Source: Gammaproteobacteria bacterium (GTDB lineage: Bacteria; Pseudomonadota; Gammaproteobacteria; Tenderiales; Tenderiaceae). Taken from it: DNA of 32,144 nucleotides. The stretch covers positions 1-32,144 of the forward strand of contig JAKFXL010000060.1 in NCBI GenBank assembly GCA_021731365.1, read 5' to 3'. This document shows positions 11,078 to 23,013 of this stretch, piece by piece (the first letter of the stretch is position 1; every line of letters begins with the position of its first letter). A program made the translations under genes and the position numbers. Under the pieces are notes generated by a model. That model was not told the DNA's origin and did no database searches. It saw nothing but the letters and a program-made list of their open reading frames with translations.

Positions 11078-11668
11078 GTGCAGATCAGCAGCGCCTCCCC
11101 CACCTATCCTCTACAACGCCCGGCAACCACGCCTGGGGCTGCCATTGGTAGAGAGGAGGAGAAGACTTCAACAGAGAGCGCCCGCAACAACGGCACCAAA
11201 CTCAGTGACGAAGAGCAGAAACAGCTCAGCCAGCTGCAAGCCCGTGATCGCGAAGTGCGCGCCCACGAGGCGGCCCACAAAGCCGCCGCCGGGCAGTACG
11301 CCACCGGGGCCGCCAGCTTTGAGTACCAGCGTGGGCCGGATGGCCGCCTTTACGCCAGCGGTGGTGAGGTGGGGATCGATACCAGCCCCATCGCTGGTAA
11401 CCCCGCAGCAACCATACAGAAAGCCAATCAGGTACGTGCAGCCGCATTAGCACCGGCCCAACCCTCCGGGCAGGATATGGCCGTGGCCGCCGCGGCGGCT
11501 ATGATGGCTGCCACGGCCCGAAGCGAGATGCTGACGCAACAACAGAGACCTGCAACAGAACAGACAGAACAGGGCACCCCATCCCAGCAGGCCCAGCTCC
11601 AGCAGTATCAGTCGGTTGCCAATGGCTCCGACAACCCGCAGCCCCCGCTTATTCATCTCACCGCCTAA
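11078..11668 (+). CDS. SprA-related putative metalloprotease-like protein (HExxH)
   Basis: A 196-residue protein starting at GTG. After a disordered, charged N-terminus (residues 20-55) comes DREVRAHEAAHKAAAGQYATGAASFEYQRGPDGR; HEAAH at 63-67 is an HExxH zinc-peptidase type motif. It continues with YASGGEVGIDTSPIAGNPAATIQKANQVRAAALAP, the conserved core of the SprA-related family (PF12118). An Ala-rich helix follows, then a Gln/Thr-rich tail. No signal peptide or membrane segment is seen. The function of this family is not established, and peptidase activity is only suggested by the motif. It is probably cotranscribed with the small rod-like gene. The Shine-Dalgarno is weak. Confidence 0.78.
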   Translation: MQISSASPTYPLQRPATTPGAAIGREEEKTSTESARNNGTKLSDEEQKQLSQLQARDREVRAHEAAHKAAAGQYATGAASFEYQRGPDGRLYASGGEVGIDTSPIAGNPAATIQKANQVRAAALAPAQPSGQDMAVAAAAAMMAATARSEMLTQQQRPATEQTEQGTPSQQAQLQQYQSVANGSDNPQPPLIHLTA

Positions 11669-11799: not shown

Positions 11800-12999
11800 T
11801 TATGATGTCTGTTCAATGGAGCTTAATGCTCGTCTAAACATACCTGCCAGATTATTGGGGCTAACGTTTGATACACGTATAGACCGGCAACCATTAAATT
11901 CAGCAAAGCGATAAACTGTTTTAGCAAAGCGGGGGGTAAAATCATCCATCTCTATTTTTTTAGACTCGATGTGTAAATTAACCAACTCAAACTCACCGAT
12001 CTTACGATGTGCCTTGCAATCCACCCTGCCGACCAACCTCTCTTTATAGAGGATGGGTAAGCAGAAATAACCAAATCGACGTTTCTCTTTTGGCGTGTAA
12101 CATTCAAGTCGATAATCAAACTCAAACAGTTGTTGCAGCCTATCCCGATGAATAACTGCGTTATCAAAGGGGGATAAAAGCCGAACTGCTGCAGCCGGTT
12201 GTTTTATCTTTGCATCAAGAATAGTCTGGGTAATATAGATCGGCGGCATGCCATCGATGGGGTACTCAATCAGAGTCCCTTGTTCAATCTGCTGCTGCAA
12301 AACTGTGTTGAGCGTTTTCCGTAGGGTATCGCCGGGTCTTAAATGTGTCAGCTGTTTAAGGGTGGTAAATCCATTTGCCTTCACCGATTGATTAATGAGG
12401 TATTCGGAAAACTCTAATAAAGATGGCTCACTGGTATTGGTGTTATCGGGCAAGACTCTTTCGGTCAGGTCATAGATTTTCTCCATGCCATCACGGCCCG
12501 TTATCATTAGGTCACCTTGCATGAAGAGTTTTTCCAATGCGCGCTTGGTGGGCCGCCAATTCCACCATGTTGCATCACTTTTTGTGGCTGACTCAAAATC
12601 CCTCGCCTTAAGTGGTCCATCGATACCAATTCGGTCAAGAACATGGCGCAAGTATTTCGCCTCCACATTGGTAGAATAGGGCGACTCTCCACCTCTTATC
12701 GCTGACATCTGTGGCAAAACAAAACGGTAATCACTCATCGGTAGATAAGAAGCGGCGTGAAACCAATATTCGAAAGCACTTCGTTCCCGTACTAATTGAT
12801 GAAGGTGATCGGGTTGATAATCGGGGATACGGCTCCAGAGCGTATGGTGATGGGCACGTTCAATAACGGAAAGTGTATCTATCTGAATGTACCCTAGATG
12901 TTCTAACGCACGTTTTGTTGCCTGGCTGCCCTTACCAAAAGGACGCATTGTGGTAAGGCCCTGATGATGCAATGTAATAAGACACAATCTTTGATGCAT
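11800..12999 (-). CDS. YcaQ-type winged-helix DNA glycosylase (interstrand crosslink unhooking)
   Basis: A 399-residue protein of the HTH_42/YcaQ-AlkZ family. The N-terminal segment HLGYIQIDTLSVIERAHHH carries the QxD motif (Gln39-Ile-Asp41), which in E. coli YcaQ and Streptomyces AlkZ is needed for excision. The following stretches, HTLWSRIPDY, FEYWFHAASYLPMSDYRF and, near the C-terminus, RRFGYFCLPILYKERLVGRVDCKAHR, also match the family. Such enzymes remove alkylated bases and unhook DNA crosslinks in the cytoplasm. The gene is visibly more AT-rich than its neighbours, stands alone between operons, and has a weak ribosome binding site. It may therefore have been acquired horizontally; that is inference. 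I give no symbol because orthology to ycaQ itself is not proven. Confidence 0.83.
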   Translation of the reverse strand: MHQRLCLITLHHQGLTTMRPFGKGSQATKRALEHLGYIQIDTLSVIERAHHHTLWSRIPDYQPDHLHQLVRERSAFEYWFHAASYLPMSDYRFVLPQMSAIRGGESPYSTNVEAKYLRHVLDRIGIDGPLKARDFESATKSDATWWNWRPTKRALEKLFMQGDLMITGRDGMEKIYDLTERVLPDNTNTSEPSLLEFSEYLINQSVKANGFTTLKQLTHLRPGDTLRKTLNTVLQQQIEQGTLIEYPIDGMPPIYITQTILDAKIKQPAAAVRLLSPFDNAVIHRDRLQQLFEFDYRLECYTPKEKRRFGYFCLPILYKERLVGRVDCKAHRKIGEFELVNLHIESKKIEMDDFTPRFAKTVYRFAEFNGCRSIRVSNVSPNNLAGMFRRALSSIEQTS

Positions 13000-13085: not shown

Positions 13086-13694
13086 TCAACGCCTGCCAGC
13101 CTCACGCCACCACTCAGGCATGGCGTAGACCACCTCACCGCCCTGCTGAATGGCATTGGCCCTGGCCAGCGCCTCCAACCCGCTGCCAACGTGTAGAACA
13201 TGGGTTGCCGCAGCGCCATTCAAAACAGTGACCTGCACCAGCTTCTGTCTGGCAATCCAGGCTTGAACCTGCGCCGCACTCCATTCCGGCTGAAAACGGA
13301 CCACAATGTTGCCACTCAGCGCCAGACGTGAACCGCCTGCAGAAGAGAGATGAAAGACGGGGGATAATATCCGCGCGGGTGCCAGTGCGCGGCTCACCGC
13401 TGTGGATTCATCAGCCCCGCTGTGCAAACGCCAGATACGCACACCGGGCAGTTCAACCAGTAGCGTGGCCGCCGGTATCGCCATATGTGCGGCCCGGGTT
13501 TGAGTCGGTTGTACAAACTCCACCACCTCTCGCCCATTGACCCACACCTCACGCCAGCGAGTACCATCAAAATAGCGGACCGACTCTGTCAACGCCTGGG
13601 TGCTTTCCCCCTGCACTCCGCCAGCCGCCCCAGCCTGGCAGCCATACAAAACCACCGCCAGCGCCAATCCCGATAAAAGATATAACAACCTCAC
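13086..13694 (-). CDS. Lipoprotein resembling a free-standing subtilase prodomain
   Basis: From GTG at 13694 the protein has 202 residues: a hydrophobic signal with a lipobox ending LYGC (Cys19), so it is probably a lipoprotein. An alternative ATG at 13721 would overlap the protease gene and give an acidic n-region. The C-terminal 90 residues (GNIVVRFQPEWSAAQVQAWI, then VGSGLEALARANAIQQGGEV, then VYAMPEWWRE) match the usual plan of S8 peptidase propeptides, in which a beta-strand-rich fold ends in VxYAxPx. The N-terminal part (TESVRYFDGTRWREVWVNGREVVEF) is not recognised. The gene lies 10 bases after the S8 protease stop. I infer it acts in trans as folding chaperone and/or inhibitor of that protease, comparable to ORF2 of Aeromonas sobria. 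Confidence 0.6.
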   Translation of the reverse strand: MRLLYLLSGLALAVVLYGCQAGAAGGVQGESTQALTESVRYFDGTRWREVWVNGREVVEFVQPTQTRAAHMAIPAATLLVELPGVRIWRLHSGADESTAVSRALAPARILSPVFHLSSAGGSRLALSGNIVVRFQPEWSAAQVQAWIARQKLVQVTVLNGAAATHVLHVGSGLEALARANAIQQGGEVVYAMPEWWREAGRR

Positions 13695-13704
13695 GCCCAC
13701 CCCC

Positions 13705-15330
13705 TCACCGCTGCCGTCCATAGATACGCAATCTCCAGGAGATCAGGCTACCCATATTGTTTGCCCGTTGATCCACCACCTTTAAACGCCAGCTGCCTTG
13801 CGCTGCCTCGCCCAGATGGCGGCTGCTGCCAAAGGTCCAGGGGGAGTAGTTGGTGGTGGGGCAGGTATTGGTGAACGTCGTACATCTGTGCACCTCTGCC
13901 AACACACTCTCGGTACCACTGGGGGCCGTCAAGACGATGCTCAACTCACCAGGATCACCGTGGACCAGATTCACATCGATCTCAACATATTCAATAATCA
14001 GGTTATTGGCCGCCGCCACAGTCACCGTCTGCTGCAGGCCCGCTGCGTCACCATCCGGAATCGAGTCAGCCACCGCCACCGGGAACTCCCGCTGCAGCTG
14101 CACCCCTACATTACTACCCCAGCGCTTTGCCCTGGCCACTGCCGCCGCTGCATCCACAACACCAAATCCATATTTGTGGTTGATGTTGTACTGCGGCTCT
14201 CCGCTGGCGGGGGTGGTCACCCGCCAGTCGCTATCACTGGCGTCATTTTTACGTGCACTCTCCGCCAGGATCAGACGCACATCGCGCCACCCCAGATTGG
14301 GGTTGGCCTCCAGCATCAATGCCACCACGCCCGAGACAATCGGCGTGGCCGCGGAGGTACCGGCAAACAGTTTGGTATAGTTGCGGTTGGTATAGTCATG
14401 CAGCACGCCTGCGGTATTGTCACCACGCGTACCCATTAAATCGGTGGTAGTCAGACCATTGCCATAACCGCCAGGCGCGCAGAGCCAAAGGTTGGCCCCC
14501 TTTTCCGAATACACGGTTTTTACCCCATCACCATCCACGGCACAGACCGCGATCACATGCCTGTTATTGGTGAGGTAATTATAGTTGCTGTTATCCACCC
14601 CAAATTCACCGCCGTTGCCCGCCGCCCAGACATAGATAGTCCCTTTGCCACCACGACCATAGGTCACCCCATAGGCCACCCCCTCCTGCCACAAATTGTC
14701 CCCCGGATGTTCGGTGGTCCCATCACCACTCGCACCATACCCCCAGGAGTTATTGGAGATTGCTACCTCAGCCACATTGCGGGTCATGGCATCATGAATC
14801 TCGGCACTGTTAATCCCGCCGTTCCAGAGCAGGTTGTACCCGGCCAGGCTAACACCCGGTGCCACCCCCCGCCCACCCACGCTGTTCAAATCGCGGGCTG
14901 CGGCAATGCCCGCCACCTGGGTGCCGTGTGAACTATCAGACGACACAGGAGTGGGGTCAAAGTCCCTCTGCCGGTAGTCCCAGCTCTTACGGAACGCGAT
15001 ATTCGCCGACAGATCCTCATGCCCAATCTCCAGTGCGTCATCGACTACCACCAACAGCACGCCACGCCCTTTAATGCCATCGTTCCAGACCGGCTCAACA
15101 TGAATATCCTCCCCCACCAACAGCCCGGCAAATTGGGCGCTGTTATATAGATGCCATTGGTCACCATAGAGTGGATCGGGGCCAGTCTGCTGTGGTTGCG
15201 AGGGTGGCGGGGGGACAATGGACGAGGGTGTGCCACCACCGCCGCCGCACCCTGACACAAAACCCGGAAGCAGGAAAAGATAACAGAGCATTTTGCATAG
15301 ACTGCGTAACTGTTTGATAACGTTGCTCAT
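13705..15330 (-). CDS. Kexin-like S8 serine protease with P/Homo B domain, lipoprotein
   Basis: From ATG at 15330 the protein has 541 residues. Residues 1-28 are a lipoprotein signal ending LPGFVSGC (Cys28), followed by a Gly/Pro-rich linker. The catalytic domain opens with DPLYGDQWHLYN, typical of kexin/proprotein convertases. The triad is Asp97 (VVVDDAL), His135 (SSHGTQVAG) and Ser326 (GTSAATP), with oxyanion Asn239 (AAGNGG). The last 110 residues (from about VAVADSIPDG) form a P domain. Only about 45 residues lie between the lipid-linked Cys and the catalytic domain, so the usual propeptide is absent. The protein is probably tethered to the outer membrane or secreted. It begins 10 bases after lptG and is followed by the prodomain-like lipoprotein gene. 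Upstream in-frame codons to 15366 would overlap lptG and are rejected. Confidence 0.88.
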   Translation of the reverse strand: MSNVIKQLRSLCKMLCYLFLLPGFVSGCGGGGGTPSSIVPPPPSQPQQTGPDPLYGDQWHLYNSAQFAGLLVGEDIHVEPVWNDGIKGRGVLLVVVDDALEIGHEDLSANIAFRKSWDYRQRDFDPTPVSSDSSHGTQVAGIAAARDLNSVGGRGVAPGVSLAGYNLLWNGGINSAEIHDAMTRNVAEVAISNNSWGYGASGDGTTEHPGDNLWQEGVAYGVTYGRGGKGTIYVWAAGNGGEFGVDNSNYNYLTNNRHVIAVCAVDGDGVKTVYSEKGANLWLCAPGGYGNGLTTTDLMGTRGDNTAGVLHDYTNRNYTKLFAGTSAATPIVSGVVALMLEANPNLGWRDVRLILAESARKNDASDSDWRVTTPASGEPQYNINHKYGFGVVDAAAAVARAKRWGSNVGVQLQREFPVAVADSIPDGDAAGLQQTVTVAAANNLIIEYVEIDVNLVHGDPGELSIVLTAPSGTESVLAEVHRCTTFTNTCPTTNYSPWTFGSSRHLGEAAQGSWRLKVVDQRANNMGSLISWRLRIYGRQR

Positions 15331-15340
15331 AGTGCACACG

Positions 15341-16405
15341 TTAAAAAATTCGCCGCACCAGCACAATCGCCACGGTTAAGAATGCTGCCGGGGCAGCCAG
15401 CACGCTCATCAGCGGTGTCAGACCATAGACAACGCCCACATGGCCGGTTGTCTGATCGATCAGGTAGTAGGCAATACCAAACAGTGTGCCGACAAAAATA
15501 CGCTGCCCCACCCCCACCGAGCGTAACGGCCCAAAGACAAACGGCACCGCCAGGAAGATCATCACCATCGTGGTTACCGGTAACATGACCTTTTTCCACA
15601 ACGCCAGCCGGTAACGGCTGGCGTCCAGGCCGTTATCACTCAGATACTGCACATAACGGTAGAGCCCTGGCCCGGTCAGTGCCGTCGGATCAACAGTGAC
15701 CACACCAATCAGGTCCGGCACCAGTAACGAGCGCCACTCCGTAGTGGGCCTGCTCACCACACGAATACCCTCCATGCCAATCTCGCTGCTGGAGACATCA
15801 CTCAAATGCCACTGATTGTCGCTGAAGTTGGCACGTTTGGCCTGCGTCATCACCGTCAGCTGATTATGGTTATCAAACTCATAAATGGAGACATTAGCCA
15901 CCTGTTCAGACGAGATCAGATCACGAATATGGATGACTTTGTTACCATCACGCGCCCATAACCCCTGCTCGCTACGAAAGCTGGTCTTCTCCGCCAGCAG
16001 TTCGGCTTTAATGTTTTGCGCCCGCAACTCTGCCCGGGGGGCCACATATTCCCCCACCACCGCCATCACCACCAGCAGCAGAATGCCCACCTTCATCACC
16101 GCCCAGACAATCCGTTTAATGGAGACACCCGCCGCCCGCATCGCCACCAGTTCGCTCTGTCCCGCCAGTCCACCCAGACCGATAATCGCCCCCAGCAACA
16201 TCACAATAGGAAAGAGCTGGTAGGCCAGCCCCGGCATCAGCAGCAGACTATAGTGCATCGCATCGGCCAGGCCGTAACGCATCTTGCCAATGTTATCCAG
16301 CTCCCCCGCAAATGCAGCAAAGGCAAACAGCGCCAGCAGTATCAACATCACCACCAGCGTGCTCTGCAATACCGCCCGGCCTACATGAAAGTCGAGCAGT
16401 TTCAT
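15341..16405 (-). CDS. lptG: LPS export ABC transporter permease LptG
   Basis: A 354-residue inner-membrane protein. Three N-terminal hydrophobic helices (starting at residues ~14, ~55 and ~100), a large periplasmic beta-jellyroll region (roughly 125-265), and three C-terminal helices match the LptF/LptG plan. Diagnostic stretches are FPIVMLLGAIIGLGGLAGQSELVAMRAAGVS and VAPRAELRAQNIKAE. With LptF and the LptB ATPase (not in the window) it extracts lipopolysaccharide from the inner membrane and passes it to the Lpt bridge. Its ATG overlaps the lptF stop (ATGA). The protease gene follows 10 bases downstream. Confidence 0.95.
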   Translation of the reverse strand: MKLLDFHVGRAVLQSTLVVMLILLALFAFAAFAGELDNIGKMRYGLADAMHYSLLLMPGLAYQLFPIVMLLGAIIGLGGLAGQSELVAMRAAGVSIKRIVWAVMKVGILLLVVMAVVGEYVAPRAELRAQNIKAELLAEKTSFRSEQGLWARDGNKVIHIRDLISSEQVANVSIYEFDNHNQLTVMTQAKRANFSDNQWHLSDVSSSEIGMEGIRVVSRPTTEWRSLLVPDLIGVVTVDPTALTGPGLYRYVQYLSDNGLDASRYRLALWKKVMLPVTTMVMIFLAVPFVFGPLRSVGVGQRIFVGTLFGIAYYLIDQTTGHVGVVYGLTPLMSVLAAPAAFLTVAIVLVRRIF

Positions 16406-17514
16406 GATTTTGTCATCCGTGGTGCAAGCCCTTTATTACCCAGCAGCGCCTTAAAACCACCGGCATGCTGGAACATCATCACCACCACGACCAGCAGTAA
16501 CAGCCCATGCACCCACCAGATACCGATCAGCGGATCAACCTTGCCACGCTCAACCCAGGTGCGAGCCACCGCCAACAGGTTGCTGTAGATGGCATACACC
16601 AGAATGCCGAGAAAAAACTTACCGTAACGCCCCTGGCGGGGATTGGTCCGGCTCAAAAAAACCGCCAGCAGTGCCAACAGTACTGCTGACAACGGCATCG
16701 CCATACGCCACTGCAACTCCGCCTTATGCCGGGGATCATCAGAGGCCCAAAGCTGCGCGGTTGCCATGGTTGCCGTCTCACTGCTCTCCTGTGCCGTCAC
16801 TGTCTCCGGCTCTGCCACCCGCACCTCATGCTGCCGATATTTGATAATGCGAAAATCGGCCCGCCCCGGCACACCTTCGTAGCGATAACCGTTCTCCAGC
16901 ACTAGGTAACGGCTGCCATGCTCCCCCTCCCGCAGCCGGGCACGCTCAGCCACCAGCAGATTTTCAGCGCCGCGATGTATCCCTTGAATAAAAACATTCT
17001 CCATCGCATCGCCACTGTCCGAGAGGCGCTCCGCATAAAAGATCACCTCGCCCCCGGCCAGCTCCCGAAACTGCCCCGCCGCGATGCTCTCCAGGCCGAT
17101 ACTGGCCCCCAGCACCTCCTGCATCCGGTAACGTTCCACCTTGGCCAGTGGGCCGTAGTAGAGCGAGACAGCGCCAATAATGAGCGCAAACCCCACACCA
17201 AACCAGAATACCAGCCGGGTAACACGTAACAGACTGACACCACACGCCAACATGGCGACCATCTCGCTATCTTTATATAGGCGTCCAAAGGCCAGCAGTA
17301 CTGCCAGAAACAGAGAGAGCGGTAACAAAAGCATCAGCGCATCCACTGATTTAAGCGCCAACAGCATAAAAACCACCCCCAACTGGAGATCGCCTGAGGC
17401 CACCTGGCCCAGCAGCCGCGCAAACCAGGTGCTGACAAAGATCAGAAACAGCACGGTGGTCACCGCCACCAGCGTGGTGGCCATCTCCCGGAACAGGTAT
17501 CGCTCAATAATCAA
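16402..17514 (-). CDS. lptF: LPS export ABC transporter permease LptF
   Basis: Partner of LptG, about 370 residues, with the same plan: three helices, periplasmic domain, three helices. Diagnostic segments are LSLFLAVLLAFGRLYKDSEMVAMLACGVS and, before the second membrane part, HKAELQWRMAMPLSAVLLALLAVFLSRTNPRQGRYGKF. No ATG is available near the N-terminus. The TTG at 17514 gives MIIERYLFREM, which matches the start seen in homologues (I-I-x-RYL-x-RE); a TTG at 17541 would add nine residues. It is transcribed divergently from pepA, the same layout as in E. coli. A role in essential lipopolysaccharide export is certain for the family. Confidence 0.94.
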   Translation of the reverse strand: MIIERYLFREMATTLVAVTTVLFLIFVSTWFARLLGQVASGDLQLGVVFMLLALKSVDALMLLLPLSLFLAVLLAFGRLYKDSEMVAMLACGVSLLRVTRLVFWFGVGFALIIGAVSLYYGPLAKVERYRMQEVLGASIGLESIAAGQFRELAGGEVIFYAERLSDSGDAMENVFIQGIHRGAENLLVAERARLREGEHGSRYLVLENGYRYEGVPGRADFRIIKYRQHEVRVAEPETVTAQESSETATMATAQLWASDDPRHKAELQWRMAMPLSAVLLALLAVFLSRTNPRQGRYGKFFLGILVYAIYSNLLAVARTWVERGKVDPLIGIWWVHGLLLLVVVVMMFQHAGGFKALLGNKGLAPRMTKS

Positions 17515-17570
17515 AGGGGGTATCCATAATATTAAATTCAACCAGTTACTGAAAAAATGCCGCCGTTTAA

Positions 17571-19219: not shown

Positions 19220-19666
19220 ATGACACGGGTAGATTTTTATATACTGACTGGAGACGCCCACGCCAACCGTGAGCAGTTTGCCTGTCGCCTGGCCGAAAAG
19301 GTCTACCTGCTCGGCCAGGGTGTCTATCTCCATACCGAAAACGCAGCACAGTCGGCCATGCTCGATCAACTGCTCTGGAGCTACAAACAGAACAGCTTTG
19401 TCCCCCACGCCATTGAGGGCGAATCACCCGATCCAGATGTTGCGGTTTTAATAGGTCATGGTAGTGACACAGAGAGCCACAACCACGCCCAGAACCGCGA
19501 ACTGCTGATCAATCTGGCATCAGAGATTCCGCTCTTTTTTAGCTCATTCAAGCGGGTTGTCGAGATCATCAACAATGACGAGCAGACCAAACAGAGCGGC
19601 CGCGACCATTACCGTTTCTACCGTGACCGTGGCTACACCCTGGAAAATCACAACATCAGCCAATGA
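19220..19666 (+). CDS. holC: DNA polymerase III subunit chi
   Basis: A 148-residue protein with the family start RVDFYIL, then [49 protein letters not shown], followed by [11 protein letters not shown]. Chi links the clamp loader to single-strand binding protein during replication. Length is normal. It starts 21 bases after pepA and its stop overlaps the next start as ATGA, so the valS frame is translationally coupled to it. Confidence 0.93.
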
Positions 19667-20223
19667 AGCCACCAAAATACCCCTCACACCCGACAGACGA
19701 ACAGATTCCCGCAGTTCTCAGCAACGATGACATCCCTGTCCTGCAGGATATTATCGCCACCCAGGCCGTGGCCCCCGAAAAGACCGCTGTTGCATCCACC
19801 CTGAAAAAACTGGTGGATGCGGCCATCGACATGCGCCTGGCGCGACTGGCAGAGGTCATCGAACACCACTTCAACTCCCTGGAGCAGCTCCCGGGCACAC
19901 TGACAGCCGCCGATATCGGCCGCGAACTTGGGTTGGTGCTGCGTAACAATACCCGTGGCTCTCTCCCGGCCATACACGACACTAAAACCGGCCCGGCAAA
20001 TACGTTACAATCTGCGCCACCCAGGACAGCGGCGTCCACCGCCATGCAGACCGCACTGCCTACCCCCTCACCGTCGGTAGAGCAGAACTGGTATGAACAG
20101 TGGAAAAAGGCCAATACAGTACAAACAGCCGCCATCAATAATAGTCAGGCACCCAACAGTGCCCCCCATGAGCGCACGGTTACCAAAACCGTCACCAAAA
20201 TAGTGAAAGAAGCGACCACAGGC
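19663..20223 (+). other. N-terminal extension of the valS frame; likely a normally separate small gene
   Basis: These 187 codons precede the canonical ValS start in the same frame. Residues 14-100 contain DIPVLQDI, a helical region ([29 protein letters not shown]) and an ending GRELGLVL. This looks like a small acidic, helical protein; short DIPxLxDVV proteins are found between holC and valS in some relatives, from memory. Residues 100-187 are low-complexity Thr/Pro/Ala/Ser with [11 protein letters not shown]. Within it [13 protein letters not shown] resembles [13 protein letters not shown] of the ValS start. No function can be assigned. Confidence 0.6.
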
Positions 20224-23013
20224 ATGGAAAAAACCTACAACCCCGACGATATCGAACAGCGCTGGTACCAGAACTGGGAGGAGAATAACTATTTTGCCCC
20301 GGCCAACAGCAATGCTGCCGCCAGCGATACCCCCTCCTACTGCATCATGATCCCGCCGCCCAATGTCACCGGCAGCCTGCACATGGGCCACGCCTTTCAG
20401 GACACCATCATGGATGCCCTGGTCCGTTACCACCGCATGAAAGGGGATAACACCTTGTGGCAGGCCGGCACCGACCACGCCGGTATCGCCACCCAGATGG
20501 TGGTAGAGCGTCAGCTCAATGCCCAGGGCAAGACCCGCCACGACCTGGGGCGCAAGGGTTTTATCGATCAGGTATGGAAATGGAAGGCAGAATCCGGCGG
20601 CACCATCACCCGCCAGCTGCGGCGCATGGGGGCCTCCCTCGACTGGTCCCGTGAACGTTTCACCATGGACGAGGGGCTATCCGAAGCCGTGCGTGAGGTC
20701 TTTGTCCGACTCCATGAAGAGGGGCTGATCTATCGTGGTAAACGTCTGGTCAACTGGGACCCGGTACTGCACACCGCCGTCTCTGACCTTGAGGTGGTAT
20801 CACAAGAGGAGGATGGCCACCTCTGGCACTTCCGTTACCCACTCGCCAACGGCAGCGGCCATGTCGTAGTGGCCACCACCCGCCCTGAGACCATGCTCGG
20901 TGATACCGCCGTTGCCGTCCACCCTGAAGATGAGCGCTACAGCCACCTGATCGGCAAAGAGATTGCCCTGCCGCTGACGGGTCGCATGATCCCGATCATC
21001 GCCGATGACTATGTCGATCCCGAGTTTGGCAGTGGTTGTGTCAAGATCACCCCAGCCCATGACTTCAATGACTACGCCATCGGCCAGCGCCACAACCTGC
21101 CGATGATCAACATCCTCACGGAAGATGCCCGTATCAACAACACCCCCCCCGTACAGTACCGGGGGCTTGACCGTTTTGAGGCCCGTAAAAAGGTGGTTGC
21201 CGACCTTGAAGCCCTGGGATTACTGGAAAAAGTACAAAACCATAAGCTAATGGTGCCACGGGGCGACCGCTCACAATCGGTCATCGAACCGCTACTCACC
21301 GACCAGTGGTTTGTGAAAGTCGGTCCGCTGGCAGAGCCTGCCATCAAGGCGGTAGAAAATGGCGACATCAAGTTTGTACCCGACAACTGGAAAAACACCT
21401 ACTTCGAGTGGATGCGTAACATCGATGACTGGTGTATCTCACGGCAGATCTGGTGGGGCCACCGCATCCCCGCCTGGTATGACGATGTCGGCAACATCTA
21501 CGTCGCTCGCACCGAAGAGGAGGCCCGCGCCGAGGCCTTCCTGAAACTGGGCAAAGAGGCGACGCTGACCCAGGATACCGATGTGCTCGATACCTGGTTC
21601 TCCTCTGCACTCTGGCCCTTCTCCACCCTCGGCTGGCCACAGCAGACCCCTGAACTCAAGACCTTCTACCCCACCAACGTATTGGTGACGGGATTTGACA
21701 TCATCTTCTTCTGGGTCGCCCGCATGATCATGATGGGGCTCAAGTTCACCGGACAGGTCCCTTTCAAAGAGGTCTACATCCACGGTCTGGTGCGTGACGG
21801 CCAGGGACAGAAAATGTCGAAGTCAAAGGGCAATGTACTTGACCCCATTGACCTGATTGATGGTATTGACCTGAGCGCCCTGATCGCCAAACGGACCACC
21901 GGGCTGATGCAGACCGGCATGGCGGCCAAGATCGACAAGGCGACCCGCAACGAGTTCCCCAACGGCATTCCACCGTTTGGTACCGATGCGTTGCGGTTCA
22001 CCTTTGCCGCCCTGGCCTCCACCGGCCGTGACATCAAATTTGACCTGAACCGTGTCGAGGGTTACCGCAACTTCTGCAACAAACTCTGGAACGCCGCCCG
22101 CTATGTGCTGATGAATACCGATGGCCAGGATTGTGGCCAGCACGGTGGTGAAGTGGTACAGAGTCTGGCCGACCGCTGGATTCTCAGCCGCCTGCAGCGG
22201 ACCATTGACGAGGTGACACAGGCGCTTGAAAGTTATCGCCTCGACCATGCTGCTCAGGCGATCTACGAGTTCACCTGGAACGAGTACTGCGACTGGTATC
22301 TGGAGCTCTCCAAAGTAGTGCTCAATAACAGCGAGAGCAGCGTAGCGCAGCTGCGTGGCAGTCGTCAGACATTGGTACAAGTATTGGAGAGCCTGTTACG
22401 GCTGGCCCATCCCCTGATGCCCTTCATCACCGAAGAGATCTGGCAGCGTGTGGCACCCCTGGCAGGCAGTGTTGGCAAGACCATCATGCGTCAACCCTAC
22501 CCAATCAAAAATGACAACCACCACAACCCGGCCGTTGAAGCGGAGATGGGCTGGGTGATGAGCTTCATCCTCGGGGTCCGCACCATTCGTGGTGAGATGA
22601 ACATCGCCCCCGGCAAGCCGCTCCCCGTGCTGCTGCAAAACGGCAGTGACAGGGATCAACGCCGCCTGTTACGCAGTAGCAACTACCTCAACAATCTGGC
22701 GCGCCTTGAATCAATCACCTGGCTGGAAGCAGACGCCATCGCACCAGAGAGCGCCACTGCACTGATTGGCGAGATGAAGCTGCTGATCCCCATGGCCGGG
22801 CTGATCGACAAAGAGGATGAGCTGGCCCGGCTCAATAAACAGATTGAGAAGATCCAGGGTGATTTGAGCCGTGTTGAGGGCAAACTAAGCAACGAAAGTT
22901 TTATCAGCAAAGCCCCTGAGGCGGTTGTTGAGAAAGAGCGCCAGCGGATTGCCGAGATGCGCTCCTCACTGGAGCAGCTGAACCAACAGCTGGTACGTAT
23001 TCAGGCACTCTGA
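19663..23013 (+). CDS. valS: Valine--tRNA ligase with unusual 187-residue N-terminal extension
   Basis: Charges tRNA-Val in the cytoplasm. The open frame encodes 1116 residues; the normal ValS start ([18 protein letters not shown]) is at Met188 (20224), leaving a canonical 929-residue enzyme. The class I motifs are intact: HMGH at 240-243 in [13 protein letters not shown], and KMSKS at 717-721. The CP1 editing domain lies between them, with a C-terminal anticodon-binding domain and a final ValS-type coiled coil ([20 protein letters not shown]). The first ATG at 19663 is coupled to holC by ATGA, whereas the internal ATG at 20224 has no good Shine-Dalgarno. Either the cell makes a fused protein, or initiation occurs internally by a weak site. 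An intrinsic terminator follows. Confidence 0.95.

Follow-up and report, generated by a model that had tools for sequence, protein, structure and literature searches.

A propeptide-less kexin-like protease and its separately encoded prodomain-like partner in a lineage of Gammaproteobacteria

Introduction

The protease ASP of Aeromonas sobria needs ORF2 to become active and is also inhibited by it (IC50 84 nM), the C-terminal Lys of ORF2 lying at the catalytic Ser (PMC5638518), and a 2022 survey named ASP as the one subtilase that folds without the aid of an N-terminal intramolecular chaperone (PMC9549277). Stand-alone propeptide-like inhibitors of subtilases are also known, namely POIA1, yeast IB2, SUB1-ProM of Plasmodium and TgMIC5 (PMC6993865). 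Here, we analysed a stretch of 32,144 nucleotides (hereafter, the window) from a genome of the Tenderiaceae (Gammaproteobacteria, Tenderiales; contig JAKFXL010000060.1), in which a protease gene and the gene following it had been predicted to form a pair comparable to ASP and ORF2.

The protease and its partner gene

The window protease matches the Peptidase_S8 (PF00082, E 4.9e-46) and P domain (E 4.6e-19) models far above the Pfam cut-offs, and its catalytic triad and oxyanion residue (N239) are intact; the lipobox, complete triad and P domain of the original prediction are all confirmed (Table 1). Its best PDB match is kexin/furin (kexin, 4.9e-59), with the homology to the mature enzymes starting at residues 36-50, only ~22 residues separating Cys28 from the start of the mature enzyme. 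Therefore, the protease lacks a cis prodomain, and the claim that too few residues precede the catalytic domain for a propeptide holds. Judged by its sequence, the protein is a kexin-like enzyme in having an S8 domain followed by a P domain, the triad and the oxyanion Asn, and lacks two further kexin-like features, the acidic S1 pocket and the N-terminal cis prodomain. A strict-pattern lipobox is present in 14 of the 16 proteases of its clade (the window-type clade, see below). The protease frame of L014 (6624-8207, genome G001) shows no recognisable signal peptide or lipobox, and its start or the assembly may be faulty.

Table 1. Coordinates of the features discussed, in positions of the window.
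Feature	Position	Strand	Basis or remark
lptF-like gene	16402..17541	-	assigned by eye; same synteny as lptG-like gene
lptG-like gene, directly upstream of the protease (10 nt gap), probable same operon	15341..16405	-	assigned by eye
Kexin-like S8 serine protease, predicted lipoprotein, 541 aa, without propeptide	13705..15330	-	start ATG 15330
Lipobox VSGC, Cys28 predicted lipidated	15247..15258	-	sequence
Peptidase_S8 catalytic domain, residues 88-390; triad D97, H135, S326	14161..15069	-	Pfam
S1-pocket positions of the protease, residues 195-204 and 251	14719-14748 and 14578-14580		
P domain, residues 447-536	13723..13992	-	Pfam
Putative external prodomain protein (partner), 202 aa, lipobox-like LYGC with Cys19	13086..13694	-	start GTG 13694
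Partner C-terminal prodomain part, last ~80 residues	13089..13331	-	Pfam, profile-profile, model
C-terminal Arg-Arg of partner, proposed P2-P1 in the active-site cleft	13089..13094	-	Arg/Lys last in 14/14

The GTG start of the partner lies 10 nt past the protease stop, exactly where the next gene had been placed; an alternative ATG at 13721 would give a 17 nt overlap, and the two reading frames are out of phase. Searching the window genome and its relatives, we retrieved 15 partner genes in 12 genomes, 14 of them complete, the relatives being 25-41% identical to the window partner. A spurious second open reading frame was ruled out by this conservation across 14 full-length members. The partner had been described as a lipoprotein with a prodomain-like C-terminus, of which the prodomain is supported by profiles and structure (see below), whereas LYGC only resembles a lipobox and the majority of relatives have an ordinary signal peptide instead. 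The anchoring of both proteins by lipid is thus predicted in the window but does not hold in general, as a lipobox is found in a minority of the relatives' partners, and tethering to a shared membrane would be a feature of some members, including that of the window, rather than of the system. No significant match was obtained for the first ~85 residues of the mature partner. This half may represent another copy of the prodomain, like that of the cis proteins, although sequence comparison gave no support (hhalign E 0.17-0.8). A 53-aa open frame in another genome (L085, G212:C4:93777-93890) corresponds to just the last 38 residues of the partner family and is possibly a decayed duplicate.

Similarity of the partner to subtilase prodomains

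The C-terminal 67 residues of the window partner match the Fervidolysin_NPro-like model PF22148 with 16.8 bits, below the 21-bit cut-off. The same model is found at E<=0.1 in 10 of the 14 complete partners, five of which pass the cut-off, with 23.0-25.9 bits (L010, L013, L014, L016 and L041). The Inhibitor_I9 model (PF05922) was not listed at E <= 10, but filters drop most weak matches in this comparison. Direct sequence searches of the PDB with the window partner and with the partner profiles A1 and A5 gave nothing or chance matches (ribosomal L19 and others), and a plasmid search with the window partner found none.

A partner profile built from eight family members was searched across the class, and three matches of profile A1 (L034, L035 and L036) were not free-standing proteins: they are the N-terminal part of S8 proteases, the match covering about residues 33-172 directly before the catalytic domain (E 2e-8 to 5e-10). 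A cis partner-like region is also present in a haloarchaeal kexin-like protease (L104, E 5e-5). In profile-profile comparison, the partner matches the cis prodomain region with E 3.5e-7, and hhalign aligned its C-terminal domain to the corresponding cis domain with E 1e-11 (probability 97%), in contrast to 0.002 to 0.8 for the wrong halves. The anticipated homology with fervidolysin-type prodomains was therefore found. In cis subtilases, including the kexin-like L034, L036 and L104, this homologous C-terminal domain occupies a like position relative to the processing region, although it is fused to the protease there, whereas the window partner is a separate exported protein.

The model of the C-terminal domain (pLDDT 78) points in the same direction. 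Subtilisin prosegments and the PC1/3 prodomain with furin were among the first rows of the Foldseek search, with TM-scores to the target of 0.64-0.71 (0.70-0.71 for the PC1/3 prodomain bound to furin), no row having E <= 0.001. The PC1/3 prodomain was also the top row in VIA-align (Z 8.1, rmsd 2.4, 67 residues aligned), although such Z values are intermediate and RRM/ACT folds with like topology come close behind it; subtilisin prosegments and POIA1 follow among the structural matches. A structural similarity to a propeptide, as expected from the original prediction, is thus recovered. The last residue of the partner aligns to residue 107 of the PC1/3 prodomain and to residues 76-77 of subtilisin prosegments and POIA1, which are their ends; these last ordered residues of the solved prodomains lie close to the cleavage site. 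The proprotein convertase prodomains (PC1/3, furin, kexin), besides being the best structural match, share with the partner a basic C-terminal residue and a kexin-like target enzyme, but they are fused to this enzyme, and their identity to the partner is only 6-8%. The full-length partner model was poor (pLDDT 55), and its Foldseek list, in which ferredoxin-like folds predominate and ORF2 (2mk4) comes 27th (E 0.31), is not usable; the viral structure library gave weak matches only.

The 14 complete partners share one final alignment column, located nine residues past an invariant Pro and occupied by Arg in 13 and Lys in one, against an Arg/Lys background of 11%; six of them end in KR or RR. 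Taking profiles and model together, we conclude that the last ~80 residues of the partner are a subtilase prodomain.

Pairing and distribution of the two genes

The partner adjoins a propeptide-less protease of one clade in 14 of the 15 genes, lying downstream of it in 13 cases, at a short distance or overlapping, and upstream in one (L037). The 16 window-type proteases form one clade (97/94) in a tree of the catalytic and P domains, and none of them has a cis prodomain. Both genes are present in six of the 11 genomes of the window's order, and the five without partner have only remote S8 proteases (several genomes being incomplete). The distances between proteases correlate with those between partners (r 0.93 for 13 pairs, reached in 0 of 5000 permutations), a value that is inflated by species relatedness. 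The sorting of paralogues is independent of such relatedness: in genomes with two (G085) or three (G212) pairs, the paralogous partners sort as their proteases do. In G057, two tandem, closely similar propeptide-less proteases (L064, G057:C43, 204-4391) are found together with a single partner on another contig (L016, 6103-6720), which, if it serves them, must act in trans. In G057, a single partner thus seems to act on both enzymes.

The trans partner was found in 10 of 369 sampled genomes of the class, where three further matches were cis, and a phylum-wide sample of 398 genomes gave no partner besides the window's own. A search of named records with a single partner protein found nothing; with partner profile A3, two were retrieved, which are the nearest named records and both uncultured: L043, a MAG from the Gammaproteobacteria, and L044, one labelled 'uncultured Chromatiaceae'.

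Relationship to ASP/ORF2 and to stand-alone inhibitors

In the ASP/ORF2 system (PDB 3wqb, 2mk4; PF18492), a propeptide-less kexin-like S8 enzyme is likewise encoded directly upstream of its helper, whose C-terminus, ending in Lys, reaches the catalytic site (PMC5638518). Nevertheless, the ASP-type proteases, in which two PF18492-linked homologues stood for A. sobria ASP, form a clade (100/100) separate from that of the window (97/94), and the basic C-terminus is strict in window-type partners, whereas the ORF2-type helpers seen end in RAQ, DAF and LIE. Window-type partners do not reach the PF18492 (ORF_2_N) cut-off of 29.2 bits, the best relative having 19.5 bits (E 0.0012), while the ORF2 homologues L072 and L073 pass it with 38.9 and 90.7 bits; the sub-cut-off match in one relative lies in the same register as its PF22148 match. 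Aligning the partner with the two ORF2 homologues by hhalign gave E 0.05 and a probability of 1%. No PF18492 match was found in 185 genomes of the class, although this is not evidence of absence, as the control genomes likewise gave none. The homology between the partner and ORF2 is thus plausible. Since it is only suggestive and the protease clades are separate, we do not file the pair as a member of ASP/ORF2.

Two named records, of Pseudoalteromonas (L072) and Vibrio campbellii (L073), contain ASP-type pairs. G085 probably has a third (L070; 2406-5128 of G085:C77), in which the gene after the ASP-type protease encodes an exported helper of 201 aa whose C-terminus is prodomain-like and which matches no Pfam model. 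The same genome also carries two window-type pairs and a cis protease (L071). In our tree, the 16 window-type proteases, the three of ASP type and the cis enzyme of G314 form one group (94/97), whose inner order is supported by only 56/30, and the external arrangement may have had one or two origins, both being compatible with this topology.

POIA1, IB2, SUB1-ProM and TgMIC5 are also free-standing prodomain-fold proteins acting on subtilases, as the partner would be, and POIA1 is a structural match too. In contrast to the window pair, they are eukaryotic and their targets have their own propeptide, which the window protease lacks.

Proposed function and alternatives

We propose, with a probability of roughly 0.8, that the partner is the prodomain of the protease made as a separate protein, which would act in trans both as chaperone and as product-like inhibitor, by analogy with ASP/ORF2. 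Cis-fused homologues, Pfam, structure, co-occurrence and co-evolution all argue for the ASP/ORF2-like reading put forward originally. From their signal peptides, both proteins would be exported by Sec, and the protease would be lipidated and, since Gly follows the Cys, probably directed to the outer membrane. As ASP/ORF2 and the convertase prodomains suggest, the C-terminal domain of the partner would bind the nascent catalytic domain in trans and template its folding, its C-terminal strand would enter the cleft and place the terminal Arg there as a product-like P1, and the enzyme would be held inactive until the partner is degraded or dissociates. Co-expression from one operon would replace the peptide bond that joins a cis prodomain to its enzyme.

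It is also conceivable, although unlikely, that the partner is only a dedicated inhibitor or immunity protein with an I9-like fold, protecting the envelope from a protease that folds alone. POIA1 is indeed one of the best structural matches, propeptide-like inhibitors occur as stand-alone proteins (PMC6993865), and protease copies can outnumber partners (G057). In addition, L099, L100 and L102, which are kexin-like proteases of Alphaproteobacteria, have hardly any sequence ahead of the catalytic domain, and no partner homologue was found beside them. Some kexin-like proteases thus have neither propeptide nor partner, so that a missing propeptide alone is not diagnostic and the partner could be only an inhibitor. 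However, the genomes of the window's order have either both genes or neither, and the window clade is devoid of cis prodomains, whereas a near cis relative in G314 (L096) retains a prodomain of its own and no partner gene was found beside it.

For a prodomain acting in trans, the simple picture of an Arg in an acidic S1 pocket may not hold in the window, since the S1 acids of furin, D258 and D306, correspond to Ser/Gly and N251 in its protease. Both acids are kept in 14 of the 16 clade members and both are changed only in the window protease and L039, whose partners end in Arg despite this loss. The P1 preference of the window enzyme may have shifted, though its partner still ends in Arg-Arg. 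The same changes could indicate that the protease of the window lineage is degenerate, possibly weakly active or re-targeted, with the partner kept as a passenger, but this seems improbable, as the triad, the oxyanion Asn, the calcium-site residues D246 and E276, the P domain and both open frames are intact. The pairs of L010, L012 and L040, which retain these acids, are better experimental subjects than the window enzyme. Finally, a protein of prodomain fold that serves another purpose, for instance as a substrate, surface adaptor or envelope lipoprotein, and is linked to the protease by chance, is very hard to reconcile with the linkage in five families with different neighbours, the mirrored trees, the strict C-terminal Arg/Lys and the cis-fused homologues, even if the unmatched N-terminal ~85 residues may have an extra role.

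As a separately encoded prodomain, the partner would define a second protease clade of this kind, distinct from ASP/ORF2. The sequence of the partner links it to cis prodomains, whereas no such link could be demonstrated for ORF2. Both arrangements occur in nature, and a single bacterial family has the two (cis in G314, trans in G085 and G212), which allows testing the purpose of the covalent link between prodomain and enzyme. More tentatively, and with the odds somewhat against it, this could be a second, independently arisen family of external-prodomain subtilases, in which a cis prodomain moved to its own gene, one prodomain would serve more than one protease (G057) and co-localisation at the membrane in some members would provide lasting on/off control.

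Genomic neighbourhood

The pair directly follows lptFG, as noted previously, and this position is common to L010, L011, L012 and L014, all from the window's order, and absent elsewhere. The adjacency points to co-transcription in this order rather than to a link with LPS. Being restricted to it, the neighbourhood says little about substrates, and the earlier hint at envelope substrates is weakened. On the other side of the pair, a winged-helix gene (YcaQ-like, by eye; 11800-12999) separates the partner from the gene at 11078-11668, the counterpart of which is directly beside the partner in L011, L012 and L014. Further away in the window, a valyl-tRNA synthetase (by eye; 19663-23013) has an N-terminal extension of ~190 residues, whose WYEQWKKAN motif resembles the start of a normal valyl-tRNA synthetase, and a similar extension seems to begin in L014.
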